DNA of 64,000 bases, from the NCBI GenBank assembly GCA_035517655.1, contig DATIYJ010000018.1:1-64000 (forward strand). Reading direction: 5' to 3'. The notes under the pieces were generated by a model. That model had not been told where the DNA came from and did no database searches. It was given only the letters and a program-made list of their open reading frames with translations. The stretch comes from Nitrospiria bacterium. Its GTDB lineage: Bacteria > Nitrospirota > Nitrospiria > JACQBZ01. A program made the position numbers and the translations under genes. Positions 22,959-42,220 of this stretch are shown piece by piece. Positions within the stretch are counted from its first letter, which is position 1; the number at the start of each line of letters is the position of its first letter.

Positions 22959-23918
22959 TTAACTCCTGAGCGCGGGCATTTCCGAGTCTTCGAACAATCC
23001 CACGCACGACTCGATGAATTTTGAAACCTCCTCCGCGACAAGATCTCTCTGCTTATCGATCGTGATGACATGGTAACAATCATCCAGGAGCACCAGTCTT
23101 TTATCGGCCGAACGAATCGTCCGATAAACCAGTTCGGCGTTCCGAGGGCCGGTAAAATCATCCTCTCGAGATTGAAGGATCAAGGTCGGCGCCGTGACCC
23201 GATGGAGGTTTCCTTTCACTTTTTCATACAGTCGATCCAGGTCCGCCAGGGTTTTTAGAAAGAAAATCGGGTATCCGACGGCCTCGGTCGAATTACTCCG
23301 TTGGGGTAATCGAGGCGTCTCGGACCGAAAACGGCGCAGGAAGGCCCGCAGCCGGTACAAAGGATGATAGGCCTCACGGATCCGGCTTTGCAGGGCCGGC
23401 TCTTTGATTCCGTACGGATACCCGTCGATATGAAAGAAAAAGTATTGTAAGAAGGCCGGAAGCCTTTTGATCCCGAACGGAAGAAGGCTCAACGTCCACG
23501 GGGAATTCCAACCGTCGTAAAAAAAGGTGGGCGAAAGAACGACGACCCCATCCAACGGAATCGCGGTCGAGGCCTCCAGCGCGAAAAGCGCTCCCGCGCT
23601 CAAGCCCCCCACGATCAAACGCTGATAATGCTCCCGGCAGAAGGCCAGTTGCATCTGAACGTGTCGCAGCCAGTCTTCTTCGTCCGACCGCAGCATATCC
23701 CGCAACCCCAAACAATGTCCCGGGAGCGTGGGCAGATAGACATCCCGGCCTTGCCGGGATAACTTCAGCGCCAGATACTTCATCTCCAGGGGGGTTCCGG
23801 TCACGCCGTGAATGAGATAAACGAGCGTCGAGGATTGAGCCGGCATGAAGAGATCGGTGCGCCGGGCTCCCGGCATGCGGGCCAGCGCCGCCTCTTTCGT
23901 TTCGAAGGGATGACTCAT
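22959..23918 (-). CDS. Alpha/beta hydrolase, monoacylglycerol lipase/thioesterase-like
   Basis: 319 residues, cytoplasmic. YLIHGVTGTPLEMK holds the oxyanion His-Gly; the nucleophile is in VGGLSAGALFA (GxSxG); the Asp is probably in SREDDFTGP and the His in CYHVITID near the C-terminus. This is the pattern of serine hydrolases such as Est30 and monoacylglycerol lipase. In an ACP/ketosynthase operon it may release or trim an acyl chain. The start overlaps the aminotransferase stop as ATGA. Confidence 0.82.
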   Translation of the reverse strand: MSHPFETKEAALARMPGARRTDLFMPAQSSTLVYLIHGVTGTPLEMKYLALKLSRQGRDVYLPTLPGHCLGLRDMLRSDEEDWLRHVQMQLAFCREHYQRLIVGGLSAGALFALEASTAIPLDGVVVLSPTFFYDGWNSPWTLSLLPFGIKRLPAFLQYFFFHIDGYPYGIKEPALQSRIREAYHPLYRLRAFLRRFRSETPRLPQRSNSTEAVGYPIFFLKTLADLDRLYEKVKGNLHRVTAPTLILQSREDDFTGPRNAELVYRTIRSADKRLVLLDDCYHVITIDKQRDLVAEEVSKFIESCVGLFEDSEMPALRS

Positions 23919-25300
23919 GGCGCCTCCGTCGCGTATTTCTTGAACAAAACGTCGAGCAGCTCGACGGCCAGATCGATTTCCTCCTTTGATATTTCAAGAC
24001 TCGGGGCCAGGGTGAACACGTTTTTATAGTACCCGCCCACGTCCAGCACCAGCCCCATCGGTCCACGCGAGGTCGGAATCCCGCCCTCGAGGCCGGCCTC
24101 AAAGATTTGGTCCACGAGCGCCTTGTTGGGCGTATACCGGTCGGCCTGGGTCACCTCGATCCGAAGGGCCAGCCCCAATCCGGAAACATTGCCGATGACG
24201 CGATGGCGGCTTTTCAATTCCTCGAGCCGCGCCAGGAAGTAGGCGCCTTTTTCCGCAACGGTCTTTTCATAGTTTTGATGCCGGATCCATTCCAGCGTGG
24301 CCAGCGCCGCCGTCGTTCCAAGGGGGTTGGACGAGAAGGTGGAATGCGTCGATCCCGGCGGAAACATCTCCGGCGAGATCAGCCGTTCCTCGGCCCAGAC
24401 GCCCGAGATCGGGTTCAATCCGTTGGTCATCGCCTTTCCGAACACGACGATGTTGGGCTTTACGCCGAAATGCTCGATGGCCCAAAACTTCCCCGTTCGG
24501 AAGAAGCCCATCTGGATCTCGTCGTCCACCATGAGGATTTTCCGGTCTTCCAAAACCTTCGACAGCCGCGGAAAATATTCCGGCGGCGGGATGACGTAGC
24601 CGCCGGTTCCCTGCACCGCTTCCACATAAAACGCCACGTACTCGGGCTCTTGGGCTTTGGAATCCCAGAAGGATTGGTATTCGGTTTCAAAGAGTTTTTC
24701 GAATTGCTGTACGCAGTAATAGTCGCAGCTCTCAAGCTTCTTCCCGTACGGGCATCGGAAGCAGTAGGGAAACGGAACGAAGTGGGCGCGATTCGAAAAA
24801 TGCCCGTAGCGACGACGGTACCGGTAGCTGGAGGTGATCTCGGAGGCCCCCAAGGTCCTCCCATGATAGCCGCCCATGAAGGCCATGAAGAGGCTCTTGC
24901 CGGTCGCGTTGCGGACCAGCTTCATCGAATCCTCGACCGCCTGGGAGCCGCCGACGTTAAACTGGACCCGCCCCTCCCGACCGAAGGCCCGACCGCACTC
25001 CCGGGCCAGCTCCGCGGCCAGCAACACTTTTTCTTCGTGCAGATACTGACAGGCCAGTTGCGGAAGCGTCTCGATCTGTTCTTTCAAGCGCTGGCTGATT
25101 TCCTTGTTCCGGTATCCGAAATTGACGGCCGAATACCACATCTGGAGGTCGAGGTAAGGGCGGGATTCGCGGTCGTACAGAAAGCTTCCTTCCGCCGCTT
25201 TAAAAAACTTGGGGGACGACGCGTAATGAACCGTGTCGCCGTAGGAGCAGTACTTGGCTTCCAGTCTTCTCAACTCCGCTTCTTCCTGACGCAATTTCAT
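23915..25300 (-). CDS. Class III PLP-dependent aminotransferase
   Basis: 461 residues. The PLP-binding features are clear: NVGGSQAVEDSMKL (glycine-rich phosphate loop), GGYHGRTLGA, the Asp of MVDDEIQMGF that pairs with PLP nitrogen, and VFGKAMTNG with the catalytic Lys. This is the acetylornithine/4-aminobutyrate aminotransferase family. An insertion with four Cys (FRCPYGKKLESCDYYC region, about 180-195) is unusual and could bind a metal. It is flanked by ATGA overlaps on both sides, so it is a core member of the operon. It could install an amino group on the acyl or sugar intermediate. Confidence 0.87.
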   Translation of the reverse strand: MKLRQEEAELRRLEAKYCSYGDTVHYASSPKFFKAAEGSFLYDRESRPYLDLQMWYSAVNFGYRNKEISQRLKEQIETLPQLACQYLHEEKVLLAAELARECGRAFGREGRVQFNVGGSQAVEDSMKLVRNATGKSLFMAFMGGYHGRTLGASEITSSYRYRRRYGHFSNRAHFVPFPYCFRCPYGKKLESCDYYCVQQFEKLFETEYQSFWDSKAQEPEYVAFYVEAVQGTGGYVIPPPEYFPRLSKVLEDRKILMVDDEIQMGFFRTGKFWAIEHFGVKPNIVVFGKAMTNGLNPISGVWAEERLISPEMFPPGSTHSTFSSNPLGTTAALATLEWIRHQNYEKTVAEKGAYFLARLEELKSRHRVIGNVSGLGLALRIEVTQADRYTPNKALVDQIFEAGLEGGIPTSRGPMGLVLDVGGYYKNVFTLAPSLEISKEEIDLAVELLDVLFKKYATEAP

Positions 25301-25974
25301 CGTTTCTCCTGAATGGCCGGCTTTAGCCTGGACGGTTCCCCAAACAACGCGCGCGCCACTTCGGTTAAGGTTTCGAAGGAATCGTGAACAATCCCCTTGG
25401 CCATGCAGTAGGCCCGAAGCCGTTTTTTGGCGAAGACCCGGTCGGCCCGGTGAACAACACAGCGATCGGAAAGACCGTCGCCGATGTAGACGGTCAGGAA
25501 CTCTTGACGCCCGTCCTGTTCAAGCAGCCGGCATTTACATACCCCGCAGCCCCCCTGACAAACGGCATCGCCGTACGGGAATGTGAGGGTAGGCCGCCCG
25601 TCCTCCTCCCAATGGAGCCGGTTTGAATAATGGGGAAGGTGGTCCAGTCCGTTGACGCGCAAAACGGCCTTCATCAGAAAATCGATCCCGTCGCTCACGA
25701 TCACCAGCGATGCGCCGTTCTTGACGCATTCCTTTTTCAGAACGTGGATCCCCGGATCGATCGGCTGACGGATTAGAAAAGAGCGGAGCGTTTCCGGGCC
25801 GGCCTGAATGAGCCGGGTTTGCTGTCGCATGCATTCCCGCGCCGAAAGGGTTCCTTCCTCCCACTTCCGCTCCCAATCCTTGTATTCGGGTCGGGCAAAC
25901 GTCTCCAGAACGGCGTCGGTTGTGTCCTGCCGCGTAATCGTCCCGTCGAAATCACAAAATATCTTGATTTTCAT
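25297..25974 (-). CDS. HAD-IB family phosphatase (MtnX-like)
   Basis: 225 residues. HAD motifs are FCDFDGTI (nucleophile Asp and acid/base Asp), VSDG (motif 2) and GDGLSD (motif 4), with an alpha-helical cap typical of the MtnX/PSP-like group. A Cys cluster (VCQGGCGVCKCR, about 139-150) is also present. First gene of the operon, 87 bases after the sigma-54 promoter. It may dephosphorylate the precursor that the overlapping aminotransferase gene product uses. Confidence 0.82.
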   Translation of the reverse strand: MKIKIFCDFDGTITRQDTTDAVLETFARPEYKDWERKWEEGTLSARECMRQQTRLIQAGPETLRSFLIRQPIDPGIHVLKKECVKNGASLVIVSDGIDFLMKAVLRVNGLDHLPHYSNRLHWEEDGRPTLTFPYGDAVCQGGCGVCKCRLLEQDGRQEFLTVYIGDGLSDRCVVHRADRVFAKKRLRAYCMAKGIVHDSFETLTEVARALFGEPSRLKPAIQEKR

Positions 25975-26187: not shown

Positions 26188-27555
26188 TCAAGCGTTACCG
26201 TTCTTGGATTCACGGCGCTTGCTGAACCGATACAAGGTCTTGCGATTGATCCCCAGCACCTCGGCCGCCTTGCTTTGGTTCCCGCCGGTCTGATCAAGAA
26301 TCTGCTCGACATACCGCCGTTTCATTTCTTCCAAGGTCACCATGGCATCGGAGGAAGAGGGGACGCGGGCCGGTTCTTTCGGATGCAGATCATCGGAAAT
26401 ATCGGAGGGCGTCAACACGTTATTGGTCGTGAGCGTCACCGCGCGCTCGATGACGTTTTCCAACTGGCGGATATTTCCCGGCCAATGATACTGCGTCAGG
26501 ATCTCCATGGCCTCTTTGGAAATCCCCGAGACGCTCTTCTTGGCGCGCTGACAGGCTATCTTGATGAAATGGTTTGCGAGAAGCGGAATGTCCTCCGGGT
26601 GCTCCCGCAGCGGGGGAAGATTGATCGTCACGACATGAAGCCGATAAAAGGCGTCCTCCCGGAAACGCCCGGCCTGCACCAGCGTCGCCAGGTCCTTATT
26701 GGTTGCGGCCAGGATCCGTACATCCACCCGGATCGTTTCCCCTCCGCCCACCGGGCGGACCTCATGCTTTTGCAATACGCGCAACAACTTGGCCTGAAGG
26801 GAAGGCGTGATATCCCCGATCTCGTCCAGAAAGCAGGTGCCTCCTTCCGCTTCAAGAAATAGCCCTTTTTTATTCGTCCAGGCGCCGGTGAACGCGCCCT
26901 TGGTGTGGCCGAACAGCTCGGTTTCCAGAAGGCCCTCCGGAAGCGCGGCGCAGTTGACGGCGACATACGGCTTCTCGGCCCGGCGGCTGTGGTTGTGAAT
27001 GGCCCGGGCGATCAACTCCTTTCCGGTTCCGCTCTCGCCCTGAATCAGGACGGTCGTGTCGGTGGAGGCGACCCGGGCCACCAGTTTGTAGATCTCAAGC
27101 ATCTTCGGGCTGTTGCCGATGACGGTTTCGAGCGGAAGATCCTCCGAGGCTTCGGTCGGAAGAAAGAGGTTTTCCCGAATGAGCCGCTGCTGATTCAAGG
27201 CCCGTTGAACCGTGACCTTGACATCTTCGATCTTAAACGGCTTGCTGATATAGTCGTACGCGCCGTTTTGGATGGCTTCAATCGCCGTCTCAAAGGAGCC
27301 GAAGGCCGTGATGACGATCATGATCGTCTCGGGGCTTTTCCGCCGTAACGCCCGGACCACTTCGAGTCCGCCGACATCCGGCATCTTCAGATCCGTGATC
27401 ACCATGTCAAAGGGAGCGTGTGTCCCCATCCGGATGGCTTCCGAGCCTTGCGTGGTCGTTTGGACTCGATACCCCTCCTTCGTCAGGACCTCCCGGAGAA
27501 GGTCCGCCGCGACCGCGTCGTCATCCACGACAAGGATTTGTGAAGGTGCGACCAT
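26188..27555 (-). CDS. Sigma-54-dependent response regulator (NtrC family)
   Basis: 455 residues: receiver domain (1-120; phospho-acceptor Asp in VITDLKMPD), AAA+ sigma-54 activation domain (about 145-380; GESGTGKE Walker A and the sigma-54 contact loop GAFTGA), and a C-terminal Fis-type helix-turn-helix ([18 protein letters not shown]). The start ATG is one base after the kinase stop, so the pair is co-translated. Given its position immediately upstream of the sigma-54 promoter at 26076, it probably activates the downstream lipid/sugar operon; it may also act on the second sigma-54 promoter at 63003. Confidence 0.93.
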
Positions 27556-27556
27556 C

Positions 27557-29182
27557 TTAACCTCGCTTTCTCACCGGAAGCCTCACGATAAACCGGCTTC
27601 CCTCGGCCAATCGGCTTTCCAAGGCGATCGTCCCGCCGTGGCGCTGAACCACGTCCTGACAAATCGACAAACCCAGGCCGGTTCCCTGTCCGGGCTCCTT
27701 GGAGGTGAAAAAGGGCTCGAAGACTTTTTGAAGATGATCCGACGGGATTCCCCTCCCGCTGTCCTGGACCATGACCTCGACCCATTCGGCCTCGAGCGCA
27801 TCTTCCCCGGATCGGCCCGGGGAATCCCGGGGAGGACCGATCTGCTTCGTTCGAATCACCAGGGTTCCGCCGCCGGATAATTCGTCGATCGCATTGTCGA
27901 TCAGGTTCAGAAAAACGCCCTGGATCTGGCTGTAGCTGGCCAGGAGCTTGTGCAGGTTGGGATCGAATTCCTTGACGACCGAAATCCGCTTGGCCGTCGT
28001 CTCGGGCGAAAACAGAACACAGAGATCTTCAAGGACCACGTTCAGCTCGATCCAGTCGAAATCCGTCTCGGGAAAACGCGTCGTGTTCAGCAGCCGCTGA
28101 ATGCTGTTGATCAGCCGTTCGACCTGGGACCGCATGATGGACAAGCGGCGCCGCGCGTCCTCGGTCAGCCCGCCCTCGTCCAAAAGAAGCTGAAGGTGGC
28201 CGAAGACCGAATGCAGGGGCGTTCCCAGCTCGTGCGCCACCGTTGCGGCCAGCTGCCCGATGGCCGCCAGCTCGTTGGAATGCACCAGCTGTTTCTGCAT
28301 CTGGTAGATCGATCGGTTGGCGCGAGTCAGCTCGTCGTTCCGCCTCTGAAGTTCGTCCGTGGCCGCGTCGATCTTATTCTGAAGCTCCTCGTTGAAGGTA
28401 TGAATGCGGTCGAGGAGGGCCTGATTGGCCTCGGCGCTCTGTTGAATCGTCCGGATCATCGAATTAAAGCTCGCCGTCAGCCGTCCCAGCTCGTCCGGCG
28501 CCGCAGGCGCGATGGTAACCGACAGATCTCCCTCTTTGACTCTCGACATCGCCCGCAGGAGGTTTTCGATCGGGCGATGGATCATCCGGTTCATGGAAAC
28601 CGCAAAGAGGCCGCTGATCAGTAGAACGGAGAGGAGCGTGATGACGAAGGCCTGGCTTCGTTCCTTATTATGCATCCGGTCGAACTCTTTACGAGACATC
28701 TTCATCTTAATCAAACCGATCACCTTCCCATCGAGATGAATCGGAGAGGTGATGTCTACATAATTCACTTTACCGATTCGTTCCGCCTTGGAAAGGATCT
28801 GATCGATTTTTATTTTTTCGATATCCTCCTCGGAGAGGACCGTCGGGGAATGCAGGGCCGTCGTTTTTGAAGTGACCGGGATGAGCTTCCCGTCCGGGGA
28901 AAAAGTGAACAGATCGATGCGTTCGATGTCCGAATGAATCGTCATCATGTCCAGAAGGTCGTCGTTAATTTCACGCATATCGGTCAGGCCGTGATAATCG
29001 GTCGCCACGCTCGAATCGATTTCGCGGACAACATTGACGGTCTCCTGCCGGAGGTTGTCCTCGGCGTCTTTTTCGATCATTTTCTGGGTGAAATACGTCG
29101 AGGTGAACAGGATCGCGACCACGCTGGTAATTGTCAGCAGAAGAAGTTTGGTCTTGATGCTGATTTTTTTAAATGCGGACAT
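27557..29182 (-). CDS. Membrane sensor histidine kinase
   Basis: 541 residues from the ATG at 29182 (TTG at 29191 also possible; neither has a good Shine-Dalgarno). N-terminal membrane helix, periplasmic sensor loop of about 140 residues, second helix (about 180-200), HAMP, coiled coil, HisKA with the phospho-His in TVAHELGTPLHS, and HATPase_c with NLIDNAIDEL, DSGRGIP and GTGLGLSI. The sensor loop has no recognised ligand domain. It phosphorylates the NtrC-type regulator with which it is co-transcribed. Confidence 0.92.
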   Translation of the reverse strand: MSAFKKISIKTKLLLLTITSVVAILFTSTYFTQKMIEKDAEDNLRQETVNVVREIDSSVATDYHGLTDMREINDDLLDMMTIHSDIERIDLFTFSPDGKLIPVTSKTTALHSPTVLSEEDIEKIKIDQILSKAERIGKVNYVDITSPIHLDGKVIGLIKMKMSRKEFDRMHNKERSQAFVITLLSVLLISGLFAVSMNRMIHRPIENLLRAMSRVKEGDLSVTIAPAAPDELGRLTASFNSMIRTIQQSAEANQALLDRIHTFNEELQNKIDAATDELQRRNDELTRANRSIYQMQKQLVHSNELAAIGQLAATVAHELGTPLHSVFGHLQLLLDEGGLTEDARRRLSIMRSQVERLINSIQRLLNTTRFPETDFDWIELNVVLEDLCVLFSPETTAKRISVVKEFDPNLHKLLASYSQIQGVFLNLIDNAIDELSGGGTLVIRTKQIGPPRDSPGRSGEDALEAEWVEVMVQDSGRGIPSDHLQKVFEPFFTSKEPGQGTGLGLSICQDVVQRHGGTIALESRLAEGSRFIVRLPVRKRG

Positions 29183-29237
29183 CTTTGTCAAACCGGTATA
29201 CGAACTCCGAGGCCGACGCCGAAGAACGGGAGGGAGC

Positions 29238-30416: not shown

Positions 30417-30446
30417 TTGAATCGCGGATTCAAGATTCGGTATAGT
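30417..30446 (+). promoter_or_regulatory. Sigma-70 type promoter for the ACT-GlnE-like gene
   Basis: TTGAAT (30417-30422), 18-base spacer, TATAGT (30441-30446). It overlaps the frame opening at 30445, which shows the real start is the ATG at 30484. Confidence 0.65.
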
Positions 30447-30483
30447 GTACCAGGCGCCGTTTCTTCCGGCCGGACGAAAAACC

Positions 30484-32730
30484 ATGATCCGCAAGGGTTT
30501 CAAAAAATCGATGGAGTTCCCCGGGACGGACCCGGACCGACAAGCGGCCCGGGACTTCGTTTCGCGGATGGACCGGGATTATTTCTCGGTTTATTCCCCG
30601 CGGGAAATCCGGGTCCATATCCAACTGGCGCAGGGCCTGACCTCCGATCATCCGGTCCGTCTCAAGGTCGCGCCCCGGGAAAAAAATCGGTTCAACATCG
30701 TGATCGTGGCCTTCGATTACTTTTCGGAATTCTCGATCCTCTGCGGCCTTCTGGCCTCCTTCGGCCTCGACATACGGACCGCGGACGTTTACACGTTTTC
30801 GGACCGCCGGCCGTCGGCCGTACCCGCGCTTCCCGCGCACGGCCGGCGTAAAAAAATCCCGCGGGCTCGCGACTCCCGGAAAAAGATCGTGGACGTCTTC
30901 GAGGTCTCCCCCCGACCCGGGGAGACGTTTTCGGTTTCCCGATGGAAGGAGTTCGAGAGCGAGCTCCACGCGCTTGTACGGCTCCTGTGCGACGGACTTT
31001 TTCAAGAGGCCCGGGAACGTCTGAACCGGAGGCTGATCGAGCGTCTGGAAAAGGAGCGGGGGCCGCTGGCCGATTTACTCTACCCGGTCGAGGTCCGCTT
31101 CGACAACCGCGCGAACAAACACTGGACCGCGATGGATGTCCACTCCAAAGACACGCCCGCCTTCCTGTACGCCCTGTCGAACGCCTTGTCCATGCGGGAT
31201 ATTGACATTCACAAAGTCCGGGTCCAGAGCGTCCGGGCCGAAGCGCGCGACCGGTTTTACATCACGGATCGACAGGGGCGGAAAATCCGGGGCGAACGGG
31301 AGCAGAAGACCCTGAGGATGGCCCTGGTCCTGATCAAACAGTTCACTTACTTTCTGCCGCGGGCGCCGGACCCGGCCCGGGCTCTGCGCTACTTCGATCA
31401 GCTGCTGGACCGGGTCATCGAGCGGAAATCTCCCAAAGCGCTGGCCTTGTTGTTGCGGAAAAAGGAGGGTTTGATCCTTCTCGCCCGTCTTTTGGGCACC
31501 GGCGATTTTCTCTGGGAAGATTTTCTCCGTATGCAGTTCGAGAACCTGATGCCGGTTCTGGAGGACTTCAAAGCCCGCGCGCTGCGACCGGGAAAGGAGC
31601 GGCTCCGCCGGGAACTCGCCGCGCGCCTGGCTCAAGGCGCGACCGTGGAGGAAAAGAAGCGCATCCTGAACGAATATAAAGACCGCGAAATGTTTTCGAT
31701 CGACATGAAGCATCTCGTGATGCCCAAGTCGACCCTGATCGATTTCTCGCGGGCCCTCACCGACCTTGCGGAGGTGATCGTGGATCAGGCCCTCGCCGTC
31801 GGCCATGCGGCCCTGATCCGGAAACACGGCCGGCCGAGGCTTGAGACCGGCCGGGAATGTCCCTTCGCCGTTTGCGGTCTCGGCAAGTTCGGCGGACGCG
31901 AGATGGGATACGCCTCCGATATCGAGTTGCTGTTCGTCTACGGAGGGCCGGGCCGGACCGACGGGCCGGACCCAGTCGAAAACAGTCTGTACTTCGAGCG
32001 GGTGTGTCAGGAGATCCTCCGCCTGATCGAGGCCCGCCAGGAAGGAATCTTCCATATCGACCTTCGCCTCCGGCCGGACGGAAGCAAGGGTCCGCTGGCC
32101 GTCGCGCTGGAACGGTTCCGAACCTACTATCACGCCGCCGGCGAGGCCGCGCCGTTTGAACGCCAGGCCCTCATCAAACTGCGGCGGGTCGCCGGAGAGC
32201 CCTCTCTCGGACGACAACTCGAGGCCCATCGGGACGGCTTTGTGTACGGCGCCGCGCCGTGGGACCGGGACGCGGCCATCCGCCTCCGCCGCCGTCAAAT
32301 CCGGGAGCTCGTCGCGCCGGGCACGGTCAACGTCAAATACAGCCCGGGCGGAATCATCGATATCGAGTACGCGGCTCAATACCTCCAGATCGAGCACGGC
32401 CGGGACCATCCCGAGCTGCGAACGCCGAACACCCTGGAGGCGCTGGATCAACTGCGCCGCTTAAGGATCCTCGCCGGGGACGAACACGACCGCCTTCGGG
32501 AGGCCTACCTGTTCCTGAGGAATTTGATCGACGGGCTTCGCATGGTCCGGGGAAACGCGCGGGATCTCATCCTGCCCGACGTCGCCTCGGAGGAATTCAA
32601 GTTCCTCGCGCGGCGGCTGGGCTATCATGAGACCGGCTGGGAAAAGAGCGCGGGGGCCTTGGACCGGGACGTACGGCGGCATATGAAAGCCGTCGACCGG
32701 TTTTTTTCAGGCCGCTTCAACCCGTCCTGA
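30484..32730 (+). CDS. Two ACT domains fused to a GlnE-like (GS adenylyltransferase) catalytic half
   Basis: 748 residues from the ATG at 30484. Residues about 70-110 (NRFNIVIVAFDYFSEFSIL) and 220-265 (HWTAMDVHSKDTPAFLYAL, then DIDIHKVRV) are ACT domains like those at the end of GlnD. From about 320 the protein resembles one half of GlnE: FAVCGLGKFGGREMGYASD, ending IELLFVY, is the nucleotidyltransferase motif, but the second metal Asp of SDxDL is Glu; IFHIDLRLRPDGS follows. A C-terminal domain of the GlnE linker type ends the protein. GlnE adenylylates and deadenylylates glutamine synthetase. The ACT domains could bind glutamine or another amino acid. It converges on a second GlnE-like gene 31 bases away. 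Confidence 0.82.
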   Translation: MIRKGFKKSMEFPGTDPDRQAARDFVSRMDRDYFSVYSPREIRVHIQLAQGLTSDHPVRLKVAPREKNRFNIVIVAFDYFSEFSILCGLLASFGLDIRTADVYTFSDRRPSAVPALPAHGRRKKIPRARDSRKKIVDVFEVSPRPGETFSVSRWKEFESELHALVRLLCDGLFQEARERLNRRLIERLEKERGPLADLLYPVEVRFDNRANKHWTAMDVHSKDTPAFLYALSNALSMRDIDIHKVRVQSVRAEARDRFYITDRQGRKIRGEREQKTLRMALVLIKQFTYFLPRAPDPARALRYFDQLLDRVIERKSPKALALLLRKKEGLILLARLLGTGDFLWEDFLRMQFENLMPVLEDFKARALRPGKERLRRELAARLAQGATVEEKKRILNEYKDREMFSIDMKHLVMPKSTLIDFSRALTDLAEVIVDQALAVGHAALIRKHGRPRLETGRECPFAVCGLGKFGGREMGYASDIELLFVYGGPGRTDGPDPVENSLYFERVCQEILRLIEARQEGIFHIDLRLRPDGSKGPLAVALERFRTYYHAAGEAAPFERQALIKLRRVAGEPSLGRQLEAHRDGFVYGAAPWDRDAAIRLRRRQIRELVAPGTVNVKYSPGGIIDIEYAAQYLQIEHGRDHPELRTPNTLEALDQLRRLRILAGDEHDRLREAYLFLRNLIDGLRMVRGNARDLILPDVASEEFKFLARRLGYHETGWEKSAGALDRDVRRHMKAVDRFFSGRFNPS

Positions 32731-32761
32731 AACGCGGACGCCCAAACCCGATCAAAGCGCT

Positions 32762-34372
32762 TTAACGGAAGCGGGAGGATCCCGAAGCGTCAAAGACCGC
32801 TTCAAAGGTTCGATGGACCCGTCCGGCGTGATCCCGATAGTCCTTGAGAAAGCGATCGACGGCCGCGTCCGGACCCGGACCGGCGTCCCGATAACCCATC
32901 CGCAGGGCGCAGGCCCGGACGTCTTCCGACTCGACGGGAATGGCGTGGGTCTGGACGTCCGAAACCATCTGGAGTTTGTTCTCCACATCCCGCAGAAACC
33001 GATAGGCCGCCGAAAGGTCGCGATGCTCCTCCCTTGAGAGAAGCCCGTGATCCCGCAAGCGCCGCAGGGCCTTCAACGTGTTCCGTTCCCGGATCTTCGG
33101 AAATCGTTTCCCGAACGAGGCCTGCAGCGATTGAACGATGAATTCGATTTCCCGGATGCCGCCGAACCCCAATTTGACGTCCCGGCGGCTCTGTCCTCGC
33201 ACGGACATTTTCTGATCGATGCGCTCCTTGATTCGTTTGACCTCGCTCCGAGCTTTCCGGTCGAAGGGCCGGCCGTGGATAAAGGAGGCCACCCGTTTCA
33301 GAAAGTTCATCCCCAGGGAACGGGCGCCCGCCACGGGCCAGGCCTTGGTCAAGGCCAGCCGTTCCCAGGTTTCTCCGCGCGCGGCGTAATAGCGTTCGAA
33401 GGCCCTCAGGGAATGGGCAAGGCTTCCCATCTTTCCCTCGGGACGGAGCCGCAGGTCGACGCGATAGACATAGCCTTCCGGAGTGACGTCGCCCAGCGCC
33501 GACGTGATTTTTTGCGAAAGCCGTTTGAAGTACTCTTCCTTGGTAAGGGCCCCGGCCCGGGCCGAAGTCCTCCCGCGGGATATTCCCTCCCGATCCGACG
33601 CGTAGAGATACACCAGGTCGACGTCCGAACTGAAATTCAGCTCGCCGCCGCCCAGCTTCCCCATCGCCAGGACCGTGAAGGCCGTCCGGACCCGCTTCCC
33701 GGACGGACCCGCGTGCACGGGGACCCCGTGCTCGCGTCGCATCACCCGCTCCGAAATCTCGTACGCCTTCTGGATCAGGACTTCGGCCAAAACCGAGAGG
33801 GCCGCGCCGGTCTCCTCGACGGAGGTCCGTTTGAGCAGATCCCGGACGCCGATCCGAAGGATCTCCTTCCGTTTAAAGATCCGAAGGACGTCGAGCCGCT
33901 TGGGCTCGGTCTTCAGATGTTTCAGGGCGTCCGCGAGGTCCCGGGTCAACTCCCTTTTTTTCCGTTCGTGATCCAGGATGCGGGGGTCCGAAACCCAGTA
34001 CAGAAAAACCGGATCCCGGATCAGGATCTCGGCCATGAACGGGCTTCCGCCGAACACCACGGCCAGCAACTCCAGGACCCTCGGGGATTCTTTCAGATAT
34101 GAGAACAGATGGATCCTGTTGATCGACGCCTTGGCGAAGCGTTCAAAATAATTGAGGGCCTGATCCGGATCGACGGAACGGGCGAGGCAGGCCAGGAGTT
34201 CTTCGAGGATCTCGGCCAGGAGGTGGCGCGCCCGGGGATCGTCCCCCATCGCCTGCAGATTGGCGTCGGCCTTCGCCGTTTCCTTCAAACCGTACGGGCG
34301 CAGCAGCGAAGCCGCCTGCCCGGCGTCCAACCGAGGGGCCAAGAGAAGATCTTTTGGGTTCAATGAAGCCAT
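32762..34372 (-). CDS. GlnE-like glutamine synthetase adenylyltransferase half
   Basis: 536 residues, about half of the usual 940-residue GlnE. FTVLAMGKLGGGELNFSSD followed by VDLVYLY is the canonical nucleotidyltransferase site with both Asp residues, and YRVDLRLRPEGKMG the second conserved block; GFGGIREIEFIVQ and the C-terminal helical region match the N-terminal (deadenylylase) half of GlnE better than the C-terminal half. The start has GGAGTGAG immediately before. It converges with the ACT-fused half on the opposite strand, so the two together seem to be a split and rearranged GlnE with independent promoters. Confidence 0.85.
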   Translation of the reverse strand: MASLNPKDLLLAPRLDAGQAASLLRPYGLKETAKADANLQAMGDDPRARHLLAEILEELLACLARSVDPDQALNYFERFAKASINRIHLFSYLKESPRVLELLAVVFGGSPFMAEILIRDPVFLYWVSDPRILDHERKKRELTRDLADALKHLKTEPKRLDVLRIFKRKEILRIGVRDLLKRTSVEETGAALSVLAEVLIQKAYEISERVMRREHGVPVHAGPSGKRVRTAFTVLAMGKLGGGELNFSSDVDLVYLYASDREGISRGRTSARAGALTKEEYFKRLSQKITSALGDVTPEGYVYRVDLRLRPEGKMGSLAHSLRAFERYYAARGETWERLALTKAWPVAGARSLGMNFLKRVASFIHGRPFDRKARSEVKRIKERIDQKMSVRGQSRRDVKLGFGGIREIEFIVQSLQASFGKRFPKIRERNTLKALRRLRDHGLLSREEHRDLSAAYRFLRDVENKLQMVSDVQTHAIPVESEDVRACALRMGYRDAGPGPDAAVDRFLKDYRDHAGRVHRTFEAVFDASGSSRFR

Positions 34373-36158: not shown

Positions 36159-37913
36159 ATGCGGACGGCCGGTCAACAACGTAAAACTTCATCCGCCGGG
36201 AAGGAAGATCGCTTTTCGGCCTCCCTGGGCCCCCACGAAAACCCGATCCGGGAAGCTCTGCGGTCGCTTGATGAACAACGGTTCGTGGAACGGTTCTTCG
36301 CCAAGGACGACGCGCTTTGGAAACCGGAGCCGGACGCGCGGAAGACAATCGCCCATCGCCTGGGATGGCTGACCGTCGCCGACACGATGGCCGAACAAAG
36401 CGACGACTTGACGGCGTTTGCACGGTCCGTCCGCGCATCGGGCTTCTCCCACGCCGTGCTTCTCGGAATGGGCGGAAGCAGCCTCGGACCCGCTGTGCTT
36501 CGAAACACCTTCGGCGTACGGCCCGGTTATCCGGACCTGCAGGTCCTCGACAGCACGGACCCGGCCACGATCCTCCGCGTCGAGAAGGCCGTCGACCTTC
36601 CAAAAACCCTTTTTATCGCGGCGAGCAAGTCGGGAACGACGATCGAGGTCGACGCCCTCTACCGTTATTTCCACACGAAAATAAAAACGGTCAACCCCGA
36701 TCAACCCGGAAACCAATTCATCGCCATCACCGATCCCGGAACGCCGCTGGAGGTCCTCGCCCGGACCGAGCGGTTTCGAAGGACCTTTCTGAACCCGTCC
36801 GACATCGGGGGCCGTTACTCGGTGCTGTCGTACTTCGGACTGGTGCCGGGAGTTCTGACCGGTATGGATCCGGCGGCCTTTCTCGATCGGGCCGGGCGGA
36901 TGATTCAACGGTGCGGGCCGGAAATTCCCGCGGAGAAAAATCCGGGATTGAGTCTGGGAGTCATTCTGGGCGAGATGGCCAAGGCCGGACGGGACAAGGT
37001 GACCTTGATCACCCCGCCCCCCATTCAAAACTTCGGCATCTGGGTCGAGCAACTGCTCGCCGAGAGCACCGGAAAGGAGGGGAAGGGGTTGATCCCGGTC
37101 GAAGGAGAAGCGATCGGCCGGCCGGAGGTCTACGGAAACGATCGTCTGTTCGTTTACCTGGCCGTCTCCTCTTCACCCGATCGAAAACTCCGTCAATCGC
37201 TTCAGGCTTTGGAGCGGGCGGGCCATCCGGTGGTGAGGATTCTTATCCATGACCCCTTGGATCTGGCGGGTGAATTTTTCCGGTGGGAGTTTGCGACCGC
37301 GGTCGCCGGCGCGCTCCTTAAGGTCAATCCCTTCGACGAGCCGAACGTGGCCGAAAGCAAGGAAAACACCCGTAAGGTTCTCGATGCCTTTCAGAAGACC
37401 CGAACGTTTCCAAAGGAAGAGCCGTTCCTTGAAGAAGGAGGGATGCTCCTTTACGGAAACTCGGAGAGCATCGCGAACGGCTCGTTGAAGGAGGCCGTCT
37501 GGAACTTGCTGGACCGCGCGGGGCCGGGCGATTACGTCGCGCTGATGGCGTATCTCGAGGCCTCCGGCGCGAACGATTCGCGGCTGCAGACGATCCGATC
37601 GGCCATTCGGGATCGGCGCCGGGTCGCCACCACGTTGGGTTACGGGCCCCGTTTCCTGCATTCGACGGGCCAGCTCCACAAAGGGGGCCCCGGCCGCGGC
37701 CTGTTCATCCAAATCACGGCGGAAGACGATCCGGATTTGCCGATCCCCGGCGAGCCCTACACCTTCGGCATCCTGAAAAAGGCCCAGGCGCTGGGCGATT
37801 TTCATTCGCTGTCGAACCGCAGCCGGCCCGTCCTGCGGATCCATCTCGGTTCCGACGTTGAACCGGGCCTGAAAAGGCTGGCACGCGCTCTGGGAAGCAC
37901 TCGTAAACGGTAG
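36159..37913 (+). CDS. pgi: Glucose-6-phosphate isomerase
   Basis: 584 residues from the ATG at 36159, with GAGGAAG upstream. Interconverts glucose-6-phosphate and fructose-6-phosphate. SIS-domain motifs: LGMGGSSLGPAVLRNTF, the phosphate-binding AASKSGTTIEVDA, and GNSESIANGSL near the C-terminus. The C-terminal HSTGQLHKGGPGRGLF and the overall layout are those of the phosphoglucose isomerase branch that in many relatives is fused to transaldolase; here no transaldolase domain is present. First gene of the pentose phosphate operon pgi-gnd-zwf-pgl-glk-HAD. Confidence 0.92.
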   Translation: MRTAGQQRKTSSAGKEDRFSASLGPHENPIREALRSLDEQRFVERFFAKDDALWKPEPDARKTIAHRLGWLTVADTMAEQSDDLTAFARSVRASGFSHAVLLGMGGSSLGPAVLRNTFGVRPGYPDLQVLDSTDPATILRVEKAVDLPKTLFIAASKSGTTIEVDALYRYFHTKIKTVNPDQPGNQFIAITDPGTPLEVLARTERFRRTFLNPSDIGGRYSVLSYFGLVPGVLTGMDPAAFLDRAGRMIQRCGPEIPAEKNPGLSLGVILGEMAKAGRDKVTLITPPPIQNFGIWVEQLLAESTGKEGKGLIPVEGEAIGRPEVYGNDRLFVYLAVSSSPDRKLRQSLQALERAGHPVVRILIHDPLDLAGEFFRWEFATAVAGALLKVNPFDEPNVAESKENTRKVLDAFQKTRTFPKEEPFLEEGGMLLYGNSESIANGSLKEAVWNLLDRAGPGDYVALMAYLEASGANDSRLQTIRSAIRDRRRVATTLGYGPRFLHSTGQLHKGGPGRGLFIQITAEDDPDLPIPGEPYTFGILKKAQALGDFHSLSNRSRPVLRIHLGSDVEPGLKRLARALGSTRKR

Positions 37914-38011
37914 CTACCCAGCGAGCAAAGCAAGCGAGAGGGGGAGGCTCCGTCCGGCTCCGCCGGTGGAGGGGGCGACGCGAGCCCCTAAAAATAGGGA
38001 GGGGGCAAACG

Positions 38012-38917
38012 ATGCAATTGGGATTCATCGGGCTCGGCAAGATGGGCGCCAACATGACCCAACGCCTGTTGAAGGGCGGACATCAACTGACGGTGAACGA
38101 CATCGACCCGGAATCGATTCGGCGTCTGGCCGCGTCGGGCGCGCACGGGGCCGCCACGATCGAGGAACTCGCCGGCTCTCTTTCGCCGCCCCGGGCAGTC
38201 TGGATCATGGTCCCTTCCGGCGAGCCGACCGAAAAAACGATCGCGGCCCTCGTCCCCGCACTCTCGCGCGGCGACGTGGTGATCGACGGCGGGAACTCCT
38301 ACTATCGGGACTCCGTGCGGCGGGCCGCCCGGCTCAAAGAAGAAGGACTGGCGTTCGTGGACGTCGGCACCAGCGGCGGCGTCTGGGGATTGACGGAGGG
38401 CTACAGCCTCATGATCGGGGGAGAGCCGTCGACGGTCCGTCGGCTGCGGCCGGTTTTCGAAACGCTCGCGCCGGCCCCGAACAAGGGCTGGGGGCATGTC
38501 GGACCTCATGGCGCCGGACATTTTGTAAAAATGGTGCATAACGGAATCGAGTACGGACTGATGCAGGCCTACGCCGAGGGATTCGCGATCATGGCGGCCA
38601 AAAAGGACTTCGGGCTGGACCTCCACGCCGTCGCCGAGACCTGGCGCCACGGAAGCGTCGTGCGCTCCTGGCTTCTCGACCTGACGGCCGACGCGCTTTC
38701 AAAGGACCCGACCCTCGAAACGATCAAACCCTGGGTCGCGGATTCCGGGGAAGGACGCTGGACGCTCCTGGAGGCGCTCGACCTCGATGTTTCGGCCCCC
38801 GTCATCACCGAGTCCGTCCTTCGCCGGCTGCGTTCACGGGAAGACGCGCCCTTCGCCGACAAGTTGCTCGCGGCCCTGCGCCAAGCCTTCGGCGGGCACG
38901 ACCTCAGGAAGGAGTAA
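38012..38917 (+). CDS. gnd: 6-Phosphogluconate dehydrogenase, decarboxylating (short type)
   Basis: 301 residues. N-terminal Rossmann fold GFIGLGKMGANM with an Asp at VNDID (about residue 30), which favours NAD over NADP. Substrate motifs are DGGNSYYRDS, VGTSGGVWG and the catalytic Lys region GAGHFVKMVHNGIEYG. The length is that of the short, GntZ/YqeC-type enzyme rather than the 470-residue E. coli Gnd. Converts 6-phosphogluconate to ribulose-5-phosphate. It lies 98 bases after pgi, and zwf starts four bases after its stop. Confidence 0.92.
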   Translation: MQLGFIGLGKMGANMTQRLLKGGHQLTVNDIDPESIRRLAASGAHGAATIEELAGSLSPPRAVWIMVPSGEPTEKTIAALVPALSRGDVVIDGGNSYYRDSVRRAARLKEEGLAFVDVGTSGGVWGLTEGYSLMIGGEPSTVRRLRPVFETLAPAPNKGWGHVGPHGAGHFVKMVHNGIEYGLMQAYAEGFAIMAAKKDFGLDLHAVAETWRHGSVVRSWLLDLTADALSKDPTLETIKPWVADSGEGRWTLLEALDLDVSAPVITESVLRRLRSREDAPFADKLLAALRQAFGGHDLRKE

Positions 38918-38921
38918 CGCC

Positions 38922-40463
38922 ATGAGACAGGCCAAAGTCCTGAGGATTCCACCGCCGGAAAGCGCCGCCCAGGAGCCCCAAGCGAACCCCTTCGGCCTGG
39001 TGATCTTCGGGGCCTCGGGCGACCTGACCCGGCGAAAGCTGATCCCGGCGCTGTTCCGGCTGCTGCGATCCGACCTGCTGCCGAAGCACTGGTACGTCAT
39101 CGGATCGGCCCGGACCCGAATGGACGACGATGTCTTCCGAAAACATGTCCGTGAATCCATCCGCGTTGTTGAAGAAATCGAGTCGGTTCGTGCCGCGGAG
39201 GTGGACCATTTCCTCGGCCGTTTCCACTATCTGGCCGGCGATTCCCAGGCATCGGCCTACTACGTCCGCCTCGCGAAGCGGCTGAACGAACTGGACAAGG
39301 ATCATCAGACCGGCGGCAACCGGCTCTTCTATCTGGCCACGCCGCCGGACAGTTATCCGGGCATCATCCGGGAGCTGGGCGAGGCCGGGTTGAACCGGCC
39401 CGTCAAGACGGCCCGGTGGAACCGGATCGTGATCGAGAAACCCTTCGGTTCGGACCTGGCCTCGGCCCAGGCCTTGAACCGCAAGGTGGCGCAGGTCTTC
39501 AAGGAGGATCAGGTCTACCGGATCGATCACTATCTGGGAAAAGAGACGGTCCAAAACATTCTTTTCTTCCGATTCGCCAACGCGATCTTCGAACCGATCT
39601 GGGACCGCCGCTACGTCGATCACATCCAGATCACGGTGGCGGAAAGCATCGGCATCGAGCACCGGGCCGGATATTACGAACGGGCCGGGGCGCTGCGCGA
39701 CATGTTCCAGAACCACCTGCTGCAGCTCCTCTGCCTCATCGCGATGGAACCCCCCGCGAATTTCGATCCCGAAACGGTCCGCGACGAGCGGACCAAAGTC
39801 CTCAAATCGATTCGTCCGATCCCGATGGATCAGATCGACCGGTTCGCCGTCCGCGGCCAGTACGGACCGGGCCTCGTGAACGGCCGGGAGGCCGTCGGCT
39901 ACCGCGCGGAGACGGGGGTCGCGCCGGATTCGACCACCGAGACTTTTGCGGCCCTCAAGCTTTATATCGACAACTGGCGGTGGCAGGGCGTCCGTTTTTA
40001 TCTCCGCTCCGGCAAGCGGCTCGCCACGCGCAAGGCCGAGGTCGCGATCGAGTTCAAATGGGTGCCCCATCTGCTTTTCAAACCGCTCACCCCGAAAGAC
40101 ATCCAGCCCAATACGCTGGTCTTCCGCATCCAGCCGGAGGAAGGAATCCAATTGACGTTCCAGTCCAAGCATCCGGGGTCCAAGCTTTGCCTGGACAATG
40201 TCATGATGGAATTCGATTATCGGGGCAGTTTCAAAGGCCCTTCCCCCGACGCGTACGAGCACCTTTTACTCGACTGCCTGGTCGGAGACCAGATGCTCTT
40301 CGCCCGGCGGGACTGGGTGGAGCTGTCATGGGCCCTCATCACGCCCATCCTGGACACGTGGTCGAAGACGCCCCGGGTGCCGATCTATGACGCCGGAAGC
40401 ATGGGACCCCGCGAATCGGAGTCGCTCACCGAGCAGGACAAGCGCTATTGGAGACCGCTTTAG
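38922..40463 (+). CDS. zwf: Glucose-6-phosphate dehydrogenase
   Basis: 513 residues from the ATG at 38922, with AGGAAGGAG upstream; the longer reading frame to 38787 lies inside gnd. Coenzyme motif VIFGASGDLTRRKL, the conserved EKPFGSDLASA, and the active site YRIDHYLGKETVQN (Asp-His with the substrate Lys). Oxidises glucose-6-phosphate to 6-phosphogluconolactone with NADP, the first step of the oxidative pentose phosphate pathway. Next to gnd and pgl in order of the pathway products. Confidence 0.95.
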   Translation: MRQAKVLRIPPPESAAQEPQANPFGLVIFGASGDLTRRKLIPALFRLLRSDLLPKHWYVIGSARTRMDDDVFRKHVRESIRVVEEIESVRAAEVDHFLGRFHYLAGDSQASAYYVRLAKRLNELDKDHQTGGNRLFYLATPPDSYPGIIRELGEAGLNRPVKTARWNRIVIEKPFGSDLASAQALNRKVAQVFKEDQVYRIDHYLGKETVQNILFFRFANAIFEPIWDRRYVDHIQITVAESIGIEHRAGYYERAGALRDMFQNHLLQLLCLIAMEPPANFDPETVRDERTKVLKSIRPIPMDQIDRFAVRGQYGPGLVNGREAVGYRAETGVAPDSTTETFAALKLYIDNWRWQGVRFYLRSGKRLATRKAEVAIEFKWVPHLLFKPLTPKDIQPNTLVFRIQPEEGIQLTFQSKHPGSKLCLDNVMMEFDYRGSFKGPSPDAYEHLLLDCLVGDQMLFARRDWVELSWALITPILDTWSKTPRVPIYDAGSMGPRESESLTEQDKRYWRPL

Positions 40464-40466
40464 GCC

Positions 40467-41237
40467 ATGGACGGGAGCCGGCGTGAGATCGTGATCGCTC
40501 ATGACCCGGCCGACCTGCACCGGCGAGCGTCCGAGTTTGTCGCCCAAGACATCGTTGAACGGGCCGACGTCCGCGGCCGGGTCGCGGTCGCCCTCTCGGG
40601 CGGGAAGACCCCGCTCGGATTGTACGAACGGCTCGCGGCGGGAGGTTTCCGGAAAGAAATTCCCTGGCCGCGTGTGCATCTGTTCTGGGGCGACGAGCGC
40701 TGCGTGCCCCCCGATCATCCGGCGAGCAACTATCGCGCCGTCTTGGAAACGTTGATCTCCCGGATCGCCATCCCGTCCGAAAATGTCCACCGCATGCCGG
40801 CGGAGCAGGCCGATCCCGAAAAAGCGGCCGACGAGTACGAGCGGCGGCTGCGGGCGTTTTTCCTGCCGAAGGGAGGGGCGTGGCCGGCCTTCGATCTGGT
40901 TCTTTTGGGAATCGGATCGGACGGGCACACGGCGTCCCTCTTTCCGGGTTCGCCCGCGCTGGACGAGACCCGGCGGTGGGTGGCCGCCCCGTACATCGAA
41001 AAGCTCAAGGAGCACCGACTGACCCTGACGCTGCCGGTCTTGAACGAGGCGCGGCGGGTGGTCTTTCTCGCGGCCGGTGAAGACAAGGCCGAAATTCTCC
41101 GGGATCTGCTCGGCCCGGATCGCGCCGGGACGCGCCTCCCGGTTCAACGGATCAAACCCCGTCACGGCCGATTGATTTTCTTCTTGGACCGGTCGGCCGC
41201 CCGTTTCCTCGCTCCGGAAAAGAGTGCTCCGCCATGA
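40467..41237 (+). CDS. pgl: 6-Phosphogluconolactonase (DevB type)
   Basis: 256 residues. VALSGGKTPLGLYERL, the FWGDERCVPPDHPASN block and LLGIGSDGHTASLFPGSPAL are the signature motifs of 6-phosphogluconolactonases of the glucosamine-6-phosphate isomerase fold. It hydrolyses the lactone made by Zwf. Starts three bases after zwf and its stop overlaps glk as ATGA. Confidence 0.94.
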   Translation: MDGSRREIVIAHDPADLHRRASEFVAQDIVERADVRGRVAVALSGGKTPLGLYERLAAGGFRKEIPWPRVHLFWGDERCVPPDHPASNYRAVLETLISRIAIPSENVHRMPAEQADPEKAADEYERRLRAFFLPKGGAWPAFDLVLLGIGSDGHTASLFPGSPALDETRRWVAAPYIEKLKEHRLTLTLPVLNEARRVVFLAAGEDKAEILRDLLGPDRAGTRLPVQRIKPRHGRLIFFLDRSAARFLAPEKSAPP

Positions 41238-42220
41238 TCCTGGCGGGAGACATCGGGGGAACGAAAACACACCTGGCCCTCTTCCGCAGAAAGAACCGGG
41301 GGCTGGCCCAGGTCCGTGGAGAAATTTTTCAAAGCCGCGATTATGCCGGCCTGGAAGAGGCGATCCGGAAATTTCTCCCGAAGAAGAAAACCGCCATCGA
41401 CGGCGCCTGCTTCGGCGTAGCCGGGCCGGTCCTGGACGGACGCTGCGAGACCACCAACCTGCCCTGGACGATCGAGGCCGAGTCGATCGCAAAATCCTTC
41501 GGGATCCCGACCGTCCATCTGCTCAACGATCTGGAGGCGACCGCGTACGGCAGCCTCTTCCTCGCCGATGAGGATTTCCACACCCTGAACCCGGGTCGGC
41601 CTCAAGCGCGCGGCAACCGGGCCGTGATCTCGGCCGGAACCGGGCTGGGGGAGGCGGTGCTGTTCCGGGATGGGGACGGGTACCGCGCCTCGGCCTCGGA
41701 AGGCGGGCATACCGATTTCGGGCCGCGCAATCCGACCGAGATCGCGTTGCTCGAGTATTTATTGAAGCGCCATCCTCACGTGAGCTACGAACGGATCGTC
41801 TCGGGACCCGGGCTTCTGAACATCCATCAATTCATGAAAGACACGGGCCGTGCCGAAGAACCGGAGCGGCTCCGGAAAAGAATGGCCGTCGAGGACCCGG
41901 CCGCCGTGATCACCGAGGCCGCGTCGACCGGCCGGCCGGAGGTCTGCGTCAAAACCGTCGAGCTGTTCGTCTCGATCTACGGGGCCGAGGCCGGAAACCT
42001 GGCGCTGAAGGCCCTCGCGATCGGCGGAATCTTTCTCGGCGGAGGCATCGCGCCCCGCATCCTGCCGAAACTGTCGGACGGCGCCTTCATGGAGGCCTTC
42101 GTCGACAAAGGACGATATGCGTCGCTGCTCCGGTCGATCCCCGTCCGGATCATTTTAAACGAGACGGTCGGACTCCTGGGCGCGGCGCGTTATGCCCTCA
42201 GCAACCTTTTGACCAGATGA
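41234..42220 (+). CDS. glk: Glucokinase
   Basis: 328 residues, Glk family of the ASKHA fold: LAGDIGGTKTHLALF phosphate-1 loop, FGVAGPVLDGR, NDLEATAYG, ISAGTGLGEA and EGGHTDFGPR. No ROK zinc motif, so this is the E. coli Glk type. Phosphorylates glucose with ATP, feeding Zwf and Pgi. Overlaps pgl and the following HAD gene as ATGA. Confidence 0.93.
   Translation: MILAGDIGGTKTHLALFRRKNRGLAQVRGEIFQSRDYAGLEEAIRKFLPKKKTAIDGACFGVAGPVLDGRCETTNLPWTIEAESIAKSFGIPTVHLLNDLEATAYGSLFLADEDFHTLNPGRPQARGNRAVISAGTGLGEAVLFRDGDGYRASASEGGHTDFGPRNPTEIALLEYLLKRHPHVSYERIVSGPGLLNIHQFMKDTGRAEEPERLRKRMAVEDPAAVITEAASTGRPEVCVKTVELFVSIYGAEAGNLALKALAIGGIFLGGGIAPRILPKLSDGAFMEAFVDKGRYASLLRSIPVRIILNETVGLLGAARYALSNLLTR

Follow-up and report, generated by a model that had tools for sequence, protein, structure and literature searches.

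GlnE is the textbook example of a two-headed enzyme, in which opposing activities are held in one chain and arbitrated by PII; in E. coli the N-terminal domain deadenylylates and the C-terminal domain adenylylates. What, then, is to be made of a locus at which the two heads are encoded by separate genes that converge from opposite strands? Such a locus lies in a 64,000-nucleotide stretch (here called the window; contig DATIYJ010000018.1 of assembly GCA_035517655.1) from a bacterium in the same class as the nitrifier Nitrospira. The plus-strand gene encodes a protein (P0001) that carries a GlnD-type ACT-ACT module in front of the adenylylase half (AT) of GlnE, while the minus-strand gene encodes a protein (P0002) corresponding to the half that deadenylylates AMP-modified glutamine synthetase (AR half; glutamine synthetase, GS). 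The pair is a real, conserved, two-protein GlnE within a broad family of ACT-bearing GlnE enzymes. We consider it probable that it is the adenylyl-switch for GS in this cell: P0002 would remove AMP from Tyr397 of GS, P0001 would add it by means of an Asp-x-Glu (DxE) metal site that is the fixed form of its family, and the N-terminal linker-ACT-ACT module of P0001 would control the AT activity directly. This explanation is supported by trees of the halves, by a diagnostic motif, by the pair being the sole GlnE of the genome, by the presence of GlnD, PII and the GlnA tyrosine, and by class-wide pairing.

Both open reading frames are intact, with stop codons TGA at 32728-32730 (plus strand) and TAA at 32762-32764 (minus strand). 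The first-pass annotation had described an ACT-ACT and SDIEL half on the plus strand, an SDVDL half on the minus strand and stops 31 bases apart, and this description is confirmed by the reading frames, by Pfam and by matches to the GlnD module. Its plus-strand start at 30417, however, belongs to another frame. In the frame that gives the protein, the first start codon is GTG at 30445, followed by ATG at 30484 and 30511, and as conservation with relatives begins only around residue 24-30, the true start is one of these three.

The GlnE family PF03710 is matched with 140 bits by P0001 and 228 bits by P0002 (cut-off 24), and PF08335 (GlnD_UR_UTase) is matched above cut-off by both (105 bits for P0002); in P0001 these matches span residues 346-593 and 627-755, so that the GlnE unit extends over 346-755. 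The full-length NCBIfam models of GlnE (PRK11072, PRK14108, PRK14109) give at best 194 bits for P0001 and 415 bits for P0002 and do not reach their cut-offs of 487-724, as expected for half proteins. The Pfam ACT signal in the N-terminal region of P0001 is weak, but residues 24-294 resemble the C-terminus of GlnD (NCBIfam UTase_glnD, model positions 615-843, E 9e-22), and in an hhalign comparison 236 columns of the class alignment match GlnD C-termini (probability 99.75%). This match starts upstream of ACT1, in the segment between the HD and ACT domains, so that the whole GlnD C-terminal module is present. P0001 nevertheless differs from GlnD, the PII uridylyltransferase/uridylyl-removing enzyme, as it has neither the HD domain nor the GlnD-type nucleotidyltransferase (NTase) domain of the NTase-HD-ACT-ACT architecture, its NTase domain being of the GlnE type and its ACT module N-terminal with altered loops; the genome has a complete GlnD gene at another locus. 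The AlphaFold model of P0002 has a predicted local distance difference test score (pLDDT) of 90.8 and a predicted TM-score of 0.91, and that of P0001 is fair (pLDDT 81.3 overall). Its GlnD-like module consists of ACT-like strands and helices with a pLDDT of about 80-89 over most of its length and low values at 122-143. A Foldseek search of the PDB returned the two domains of E. coli GlnE (1v4a, N domain; 3k7d, C domain) as the best matches of the models, and no significant match for the ACT pair.

The assignment of the halves rests on their phylogeny. A tree was built from 72 half domains of the class, of other Nitrospirota and of E. coli; in it, the AR proteins including P0002 group with canonical N halves, and the AT proteins including P0001 with canonical C halves, with 100% support; a better-sampled tree under a mixture model gives the same split (100/99 on each side). 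With few exceptions, the motif GGIR(E/D)xEF occurs in AR proteins and N halves, and GG(I/L/V)x(D)xE(Y/F) in AT proteins and C halves. Orthology to the N and C domains of E. coli GlnE thus predicts that P0002 is the AR and P0001 the AT. The division of labour that had been proposed from the sequence is borne out by trees and motif, and neither half falls outside the GlnE family; the catalytic direction of each half, GS as the target and the ACT module as a regulator are what we infer from these relationships. Compared with E. coli-type GlnE, the pair is orthologous half by half, with the same NTase and GlnD_UR_UTase domains and, apart from the DxE of the AT, the same active-site residues. It differs in consisting of two proteins from two genes on opposite strands rather than one polypeptide, and in an AT that bears a GlnD-type ACT pair and DxE instead of DxD.

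The remainder of the pathway is present in the same genome, a draft that is 99.3% complete. A genome-wide search found no other GlnE, and hence none of full length, which the first-pass annotation had named as the finding that would speak against it; a third, weak PF03710 match on contig C14 turned out to be GlnD. That contig carries amtB, a PII gene, a full-length GlnD (874 aa) and the single GlnA, in which residue 397 is a tyrosine within KDLYDLEPEE, the adenylylation target.

Conservation of the pair was assessed by seeking AT and AR in samples of class genomes and counting adjacency where both were on one contig. In all 99 such genomes the two genes lie side by side on opposite strands, so that the pair stands up to the check in relatives that the first-pass annotation had suggested. 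In 94 they are divergent (families f2, f3, f6 and f8) and in 5 convergent like those of the window (f1, the window's family, f4, f5, f7; also f40); that one order changed into the other by tandem duplication and loss of the outer copies is only an idea. Nitrospira itself is included, as Nitrospira sp. UBC2 (CP092081.1, locus L145) is among the carriers. Except at contig ends and in broken assemblies, class genomes without one half are also without the other. Direct adjacency of glnA to the ACT-AT gene is seen in families of the class other than that of the window, and also in several phyla. In f3 glnA stands beside the AT gene, and amtB and PII come next in several loci. Where class genomes were searched for GlnD, most contained it.

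Nine class genomes (G161, G175, G243, G263, G283, G285, G287, G300 and G303) have neither half, although they still possess the GS tyrosine and a complete or partial GlnD; judged by gene content, these should have lost GS adenylylation. A link between loss of the pair and loss of the tyrosine was considered and rejected, as the tyrosine is kept in all but one of the pair-less class genomes whose site was read. In a Nitrospira metagenome-assembled genome (MAG; G018, loci L050 and L166) the pair is apparently in decay, as the segment with the NTase active site (about residues 456-491) is missing from the AT gene and the AR gene is split between two frames.

The ACT fusion is not a peculiarity of the class. 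Other Nitrospirota that were examined have a fused GlnE of about 1050 aa without ACT domains; in one genome of the phylum (G054, locus L055) a fused GlnE is interrupted by one in-frame stop, leaving 487 and 571 aa, which may reflect a mutation or faulty assembly. Restriction of the ACT fusion to the class was nevertheless ruled out when the class alignment was scanned against 84,980 species genomes, as the ACT-ACT-AT unit turned up in many phyla. It occurs as a single AR-ACT-ACT-AT chain of about 1200-1350 aa in Chloroflexota, Planctomycetota, Calditrichota/KSB1, Acidobacteriota, Verrucomicrobiota and Fraserbacteria, and in the order ACT-ACT-AT-AR in Fibrobacterota, one Spirochaetes, one Omnitrophota, one “Deltaproteobacteria” MAG and 3 of 118 genomes of the phylum of Pelobacter. 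Tandem AR and ACT-AT genes are found in an Entotheonella MAG (L164) and a “Proteobacteria” MAG (L167), and a Pelobacter MAG (G333; L243, L221) has a free-standing ACT-AT protein of 708 aa together with a canonical GlnE of 1063 aa. The fused proteins share the ACT-ACT-AT unit and the invariant DxE with P0001 (33-43% identity for most), but are joined, in either order, to an AR half of another lineage, and many of their genomes have no GlnD. The tandem pairs also consist of separate AR and ACT-AT genes with an AR of canonical type, but theirs are directly consecutive on the same strand and the AR has a long branch of its own. Within the flanks of 15 ACT-AT loci outside the class there is a glnA gene. 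In every arrangement, be it AR-ACT-AT, ACT-AT-AR, tandem, divergent or convergent, the ACT pair is attached to the AT, which argues that it regulates this activity. Searches of the open-licence literature turned up no description of a GlnE with ACT domains, of a split GlnE, or of GlnE in Nitrospira or Chloroflexi, so that this wide enzyme family is apparently undescribed.

What might the ACT pair sense? GlnD was surveyed in 37 genomes with a fused ACT-GlnE of either order and in 19 with canonical GlnE (the unclear genome G358 was left out). No match of GlnD length was found in 23 of the 37, whereas GlnD is present in 18 of the 19, a contrast with a Fisher p of 4e-5 that ignores kinship and MAG gaps. 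Among the 23 GlnD-less genomes (which include loci L171-L190 and L204, Chloroflexota, and L185 and L192, KSB1), 13 also have no convincing PII, and the adenylylation tyrosine of GlnA is kept in 19 of 19 matches that span the site. Direct sensing is the natural reading for the GlnD-less genomes, in which no GlnD-type glutamine module was found other than the ACT pair of GlnE. Both ACT-loop glycines are present in 30 of 30 GlnDs and in 20 of 23 ACT-AT proteins, fused and stand-alone, from genomes without GlnD. In this wider family, much of it without GlnD and PII, the ACT module most likely senses glutamine.

The class of the window departs from this pattern, as it does not have the glycine in the loop between strand 1 and helix 1 of both ACT domains that is typical of GlnD. 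In ACT1, DYF(S/A)EF replaces DYPGE in 56 of 56 members; in ACT2 the glycine is lost in 50 of 56, with DTxGF mostly changed to DTPAF. The neighbouring positions are invariant, and the conservation pattern indicates that the module is under selection, although glutamine binding just like that of GlnD is unlikely. Of the earlier suggestion that amino-acid sensing is built into one half, the GlnD-type ACT pair stands, while the sensing itself is inferred only and has to be set against the lost glycines. Since GlnD is mostly retained in the class and the ligand loops are changed, the module there probably responds to some other ligand or to a protein partner, the GlnD/PII signal still being in the cell. 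The same observations are compatible with a module that senses no small molecule at all and serves for docking or oligomerisation, for example with GS or the separate AR, so replacing the lost physical link. The uniform change in ACT1, the prevalence of DTPAF in ACT2 amid otherwise invariant positions, and the retention of GlnD in the genome of the window and most class genomes searched all fit such a role. In plants, binding to plastid GS was proposed for ACR11, an ACT-repeat protein that has been likened to GlnD, although GS activity was normal in acr11 mutants according to a later study (PMC12702975). As ligand binding by ACT domains is possible with other residues in the loop, and as six class members keep the ACT2 glycine, we regard pure docking as a serious possibility that falls somewhat short of an even chance.

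A second question is whether the pair arose by breakage of a single gene, as the term “split GlnE” used in the first-pass annotation would imply. The trees favour a mosaic instead, and the ACT module is joined to the AT far beyond the class. In a joint tree rooted by the N/C duplication and computed under a mixture model, the class AR halves fall with canonical N halves (99/97) and those of fused ACT-GlnE stand apart (99/97); the ACT-AT halves, by contrast, all belong to a single clade (100/100). The AR halves of the tandem pairs of Entotheonella and “Proteobacteria” are of canonical type. A tree constrained to unite the class AR with the AR halves of fused ACT-GlnE is worse by 13.7 log units (approximately unbiased (AU) test, p 0.034), or 20.1 log units if the tandem-split AR is included (AU p 0.009). 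A tree of N halves only, from which locus L257 was dropped (wrong frame, branch of 10), is unrooted and three-way and did not decide the origin. We lean towards the mosaic, in which a canonical GlnE would have lost its AT half and kept only the AR half after an ACT-AT gene had arrived and taken over the AT role; our confidence is limited by long branches and by groups that were named after the first tree. The Pelobacter genome with both forms indicates that canonical GlnE and ACT-AT can coexist. A simple fission, in which a fused AR-ACT-ACT-AT gene of the Chloroflexota kind broke in two and one part was inverted without any mixing of lineages, would be an easy path, as fused proteins and tandem split pairs both exist, and it accords with the single clade of ACT-type AT halves. 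It is contradicted by the position of the AR half among canonical N halves and by both constraint tests, and we consider it unlikely.

We put forward, tentatively, a broader reading: that a widespread ACT-bearing GlnE lineage switches GS directly by glutamine in bacteria that have no GlnD and often no PII, so bypassing the PII cascade, and that in the Nitrospira class its ACT-AT displaced the AT half of a canonical GlnE, resulting in a switch of two proteins from different lineages, in which the ACT module later acquired another ligand or partner. In the pair described here the two heads of the enzyme are separate and the AT head is tied to a second sensor-type module, an arrangement kept across a class with key nitrifiers. 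The fused relatives in genomes without GlnD and PII suggest a short-circuited path of nitrogen sensing. Several points weigh against our favoured explanation of the pair. Many of the genomes are MAGs, and the absences of GlnD and PII may partly be assembly gaps. The loss of the ACT1 and ACT2 loop glycines in the class weakens the case for glutamine sensing by P0001. The AU p values for the mosaic are only moderate, and they come with long branches, groups chosen after the tree and few canonical GlnEs of other phyla. Finally, glnA is on another contig than the pair, and nothing near the pair links it to nitrogen except homology. With AR and AT as separate proteins, which effector acts on which activity is directly testable, something that is hard in a fused enzyme.

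The SDIEL motif of P0001 had been noted as standing in place of SDxDL. The pair does not have Asp-x-Asp in both NTase domains, the AR reading SDVD and the AT SDIE, while canonical C halves are all SDLD. Glutamate nonetheless occupies the second metal-ligand position in 97 of 97 ACT-AT proteins, from the class and from elsewhere alike, and the positions of D492 and D539 are Asp in all; SDIEL is thus a hallmark of the family, and decay can be ruled out. Catalytic residues are invariant in the relatives of both P0001 and P0002. The general NTase pattern tolerates Glu at this position, and kanamycin nucleotidyltransferase uses Asp-x-Glu. A loss or change of chemistry in the SDIEL half (an inactive AT, or one with another nucleotide or target), so that the pair performs no GS adenylylation cycle, would be in keeping with the replacement of Asp by Glu at a metal ligand; given the invariance of all three acidic positions, the many ACT-AT genomes that have no other AT domain yet keep the GS tyrosine, and the adjacency of glnA to the ACT-AT gene in several phyla, it is quite improbable. 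An assembly artefact, pseudogene or chance resemblance, which the draft state of the genome (71 contigs) might suggest, is already refuted by conservation of the pair, as both frames are intact, the pair recurs in 99 genomes including single-contig ones and the catalytic residues are invariant, so that its probability is negligible.

Coordinates of the gene pair and its features within the window; residue numbers refer to the encoded proteins
Feature	Position	Strand	Remark
ACT-ACT-AT protein P0001, 761 aa	30445..32730	+	GlnD-type C-terminal module fused to GlnE C-terminal half (predicted adenylylase)
GlnD-like module, residues ~24-294	30514..31326	+	post-HD linker, ACT1 (~residues 70-156), ACT2 (~residues 215-275)
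GlnE C-half (AT), residues ~297-755	31333..32709	+	helical part, NTase domain, GlnD_UR_UTase domain
SDIEL active-site motif	31915..31929	+	D492, E494; third acidic residue D539
Gap between convergent stop codons, 31 bases	32731..32761	.	stop positions
AR protein P0002, 536 aa	32762..34372	-	GlnE N-terminal half, predicted GS-AMP deadenylylase
SDVDL active-site motif of P0002 (S249-L253)	33614..33628	-	conserved in relatives

GC content and third-position GC of both genes resemble those of the neighbouring genes. Close to the AT gene, positions 26188-29191 of the minus strand encode a sigma-54-type (NtrC-like) response regulator of 455 aa and a sensor histidine kinase of 544 aa. A possible two-gene unit lies on the same strand at 23915-25974, where the gene for an aminotransferase-like protein of 461 aa overlaps a HAD-phosphatase-like gene (225 aa) at the end of the latter. 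The pair is followed on the plus strand (36159-42220) by a row of genes that, from the appearance of their sequences, concern sugar phosphates: glucose-6-phosphate isomerase, a 6-phosphogluconate dehydrogenase-like protein, glucose-6-phosphate dehydrogenase, and 6-phosphogluconolactonase-like and glucokinase-like proteins.

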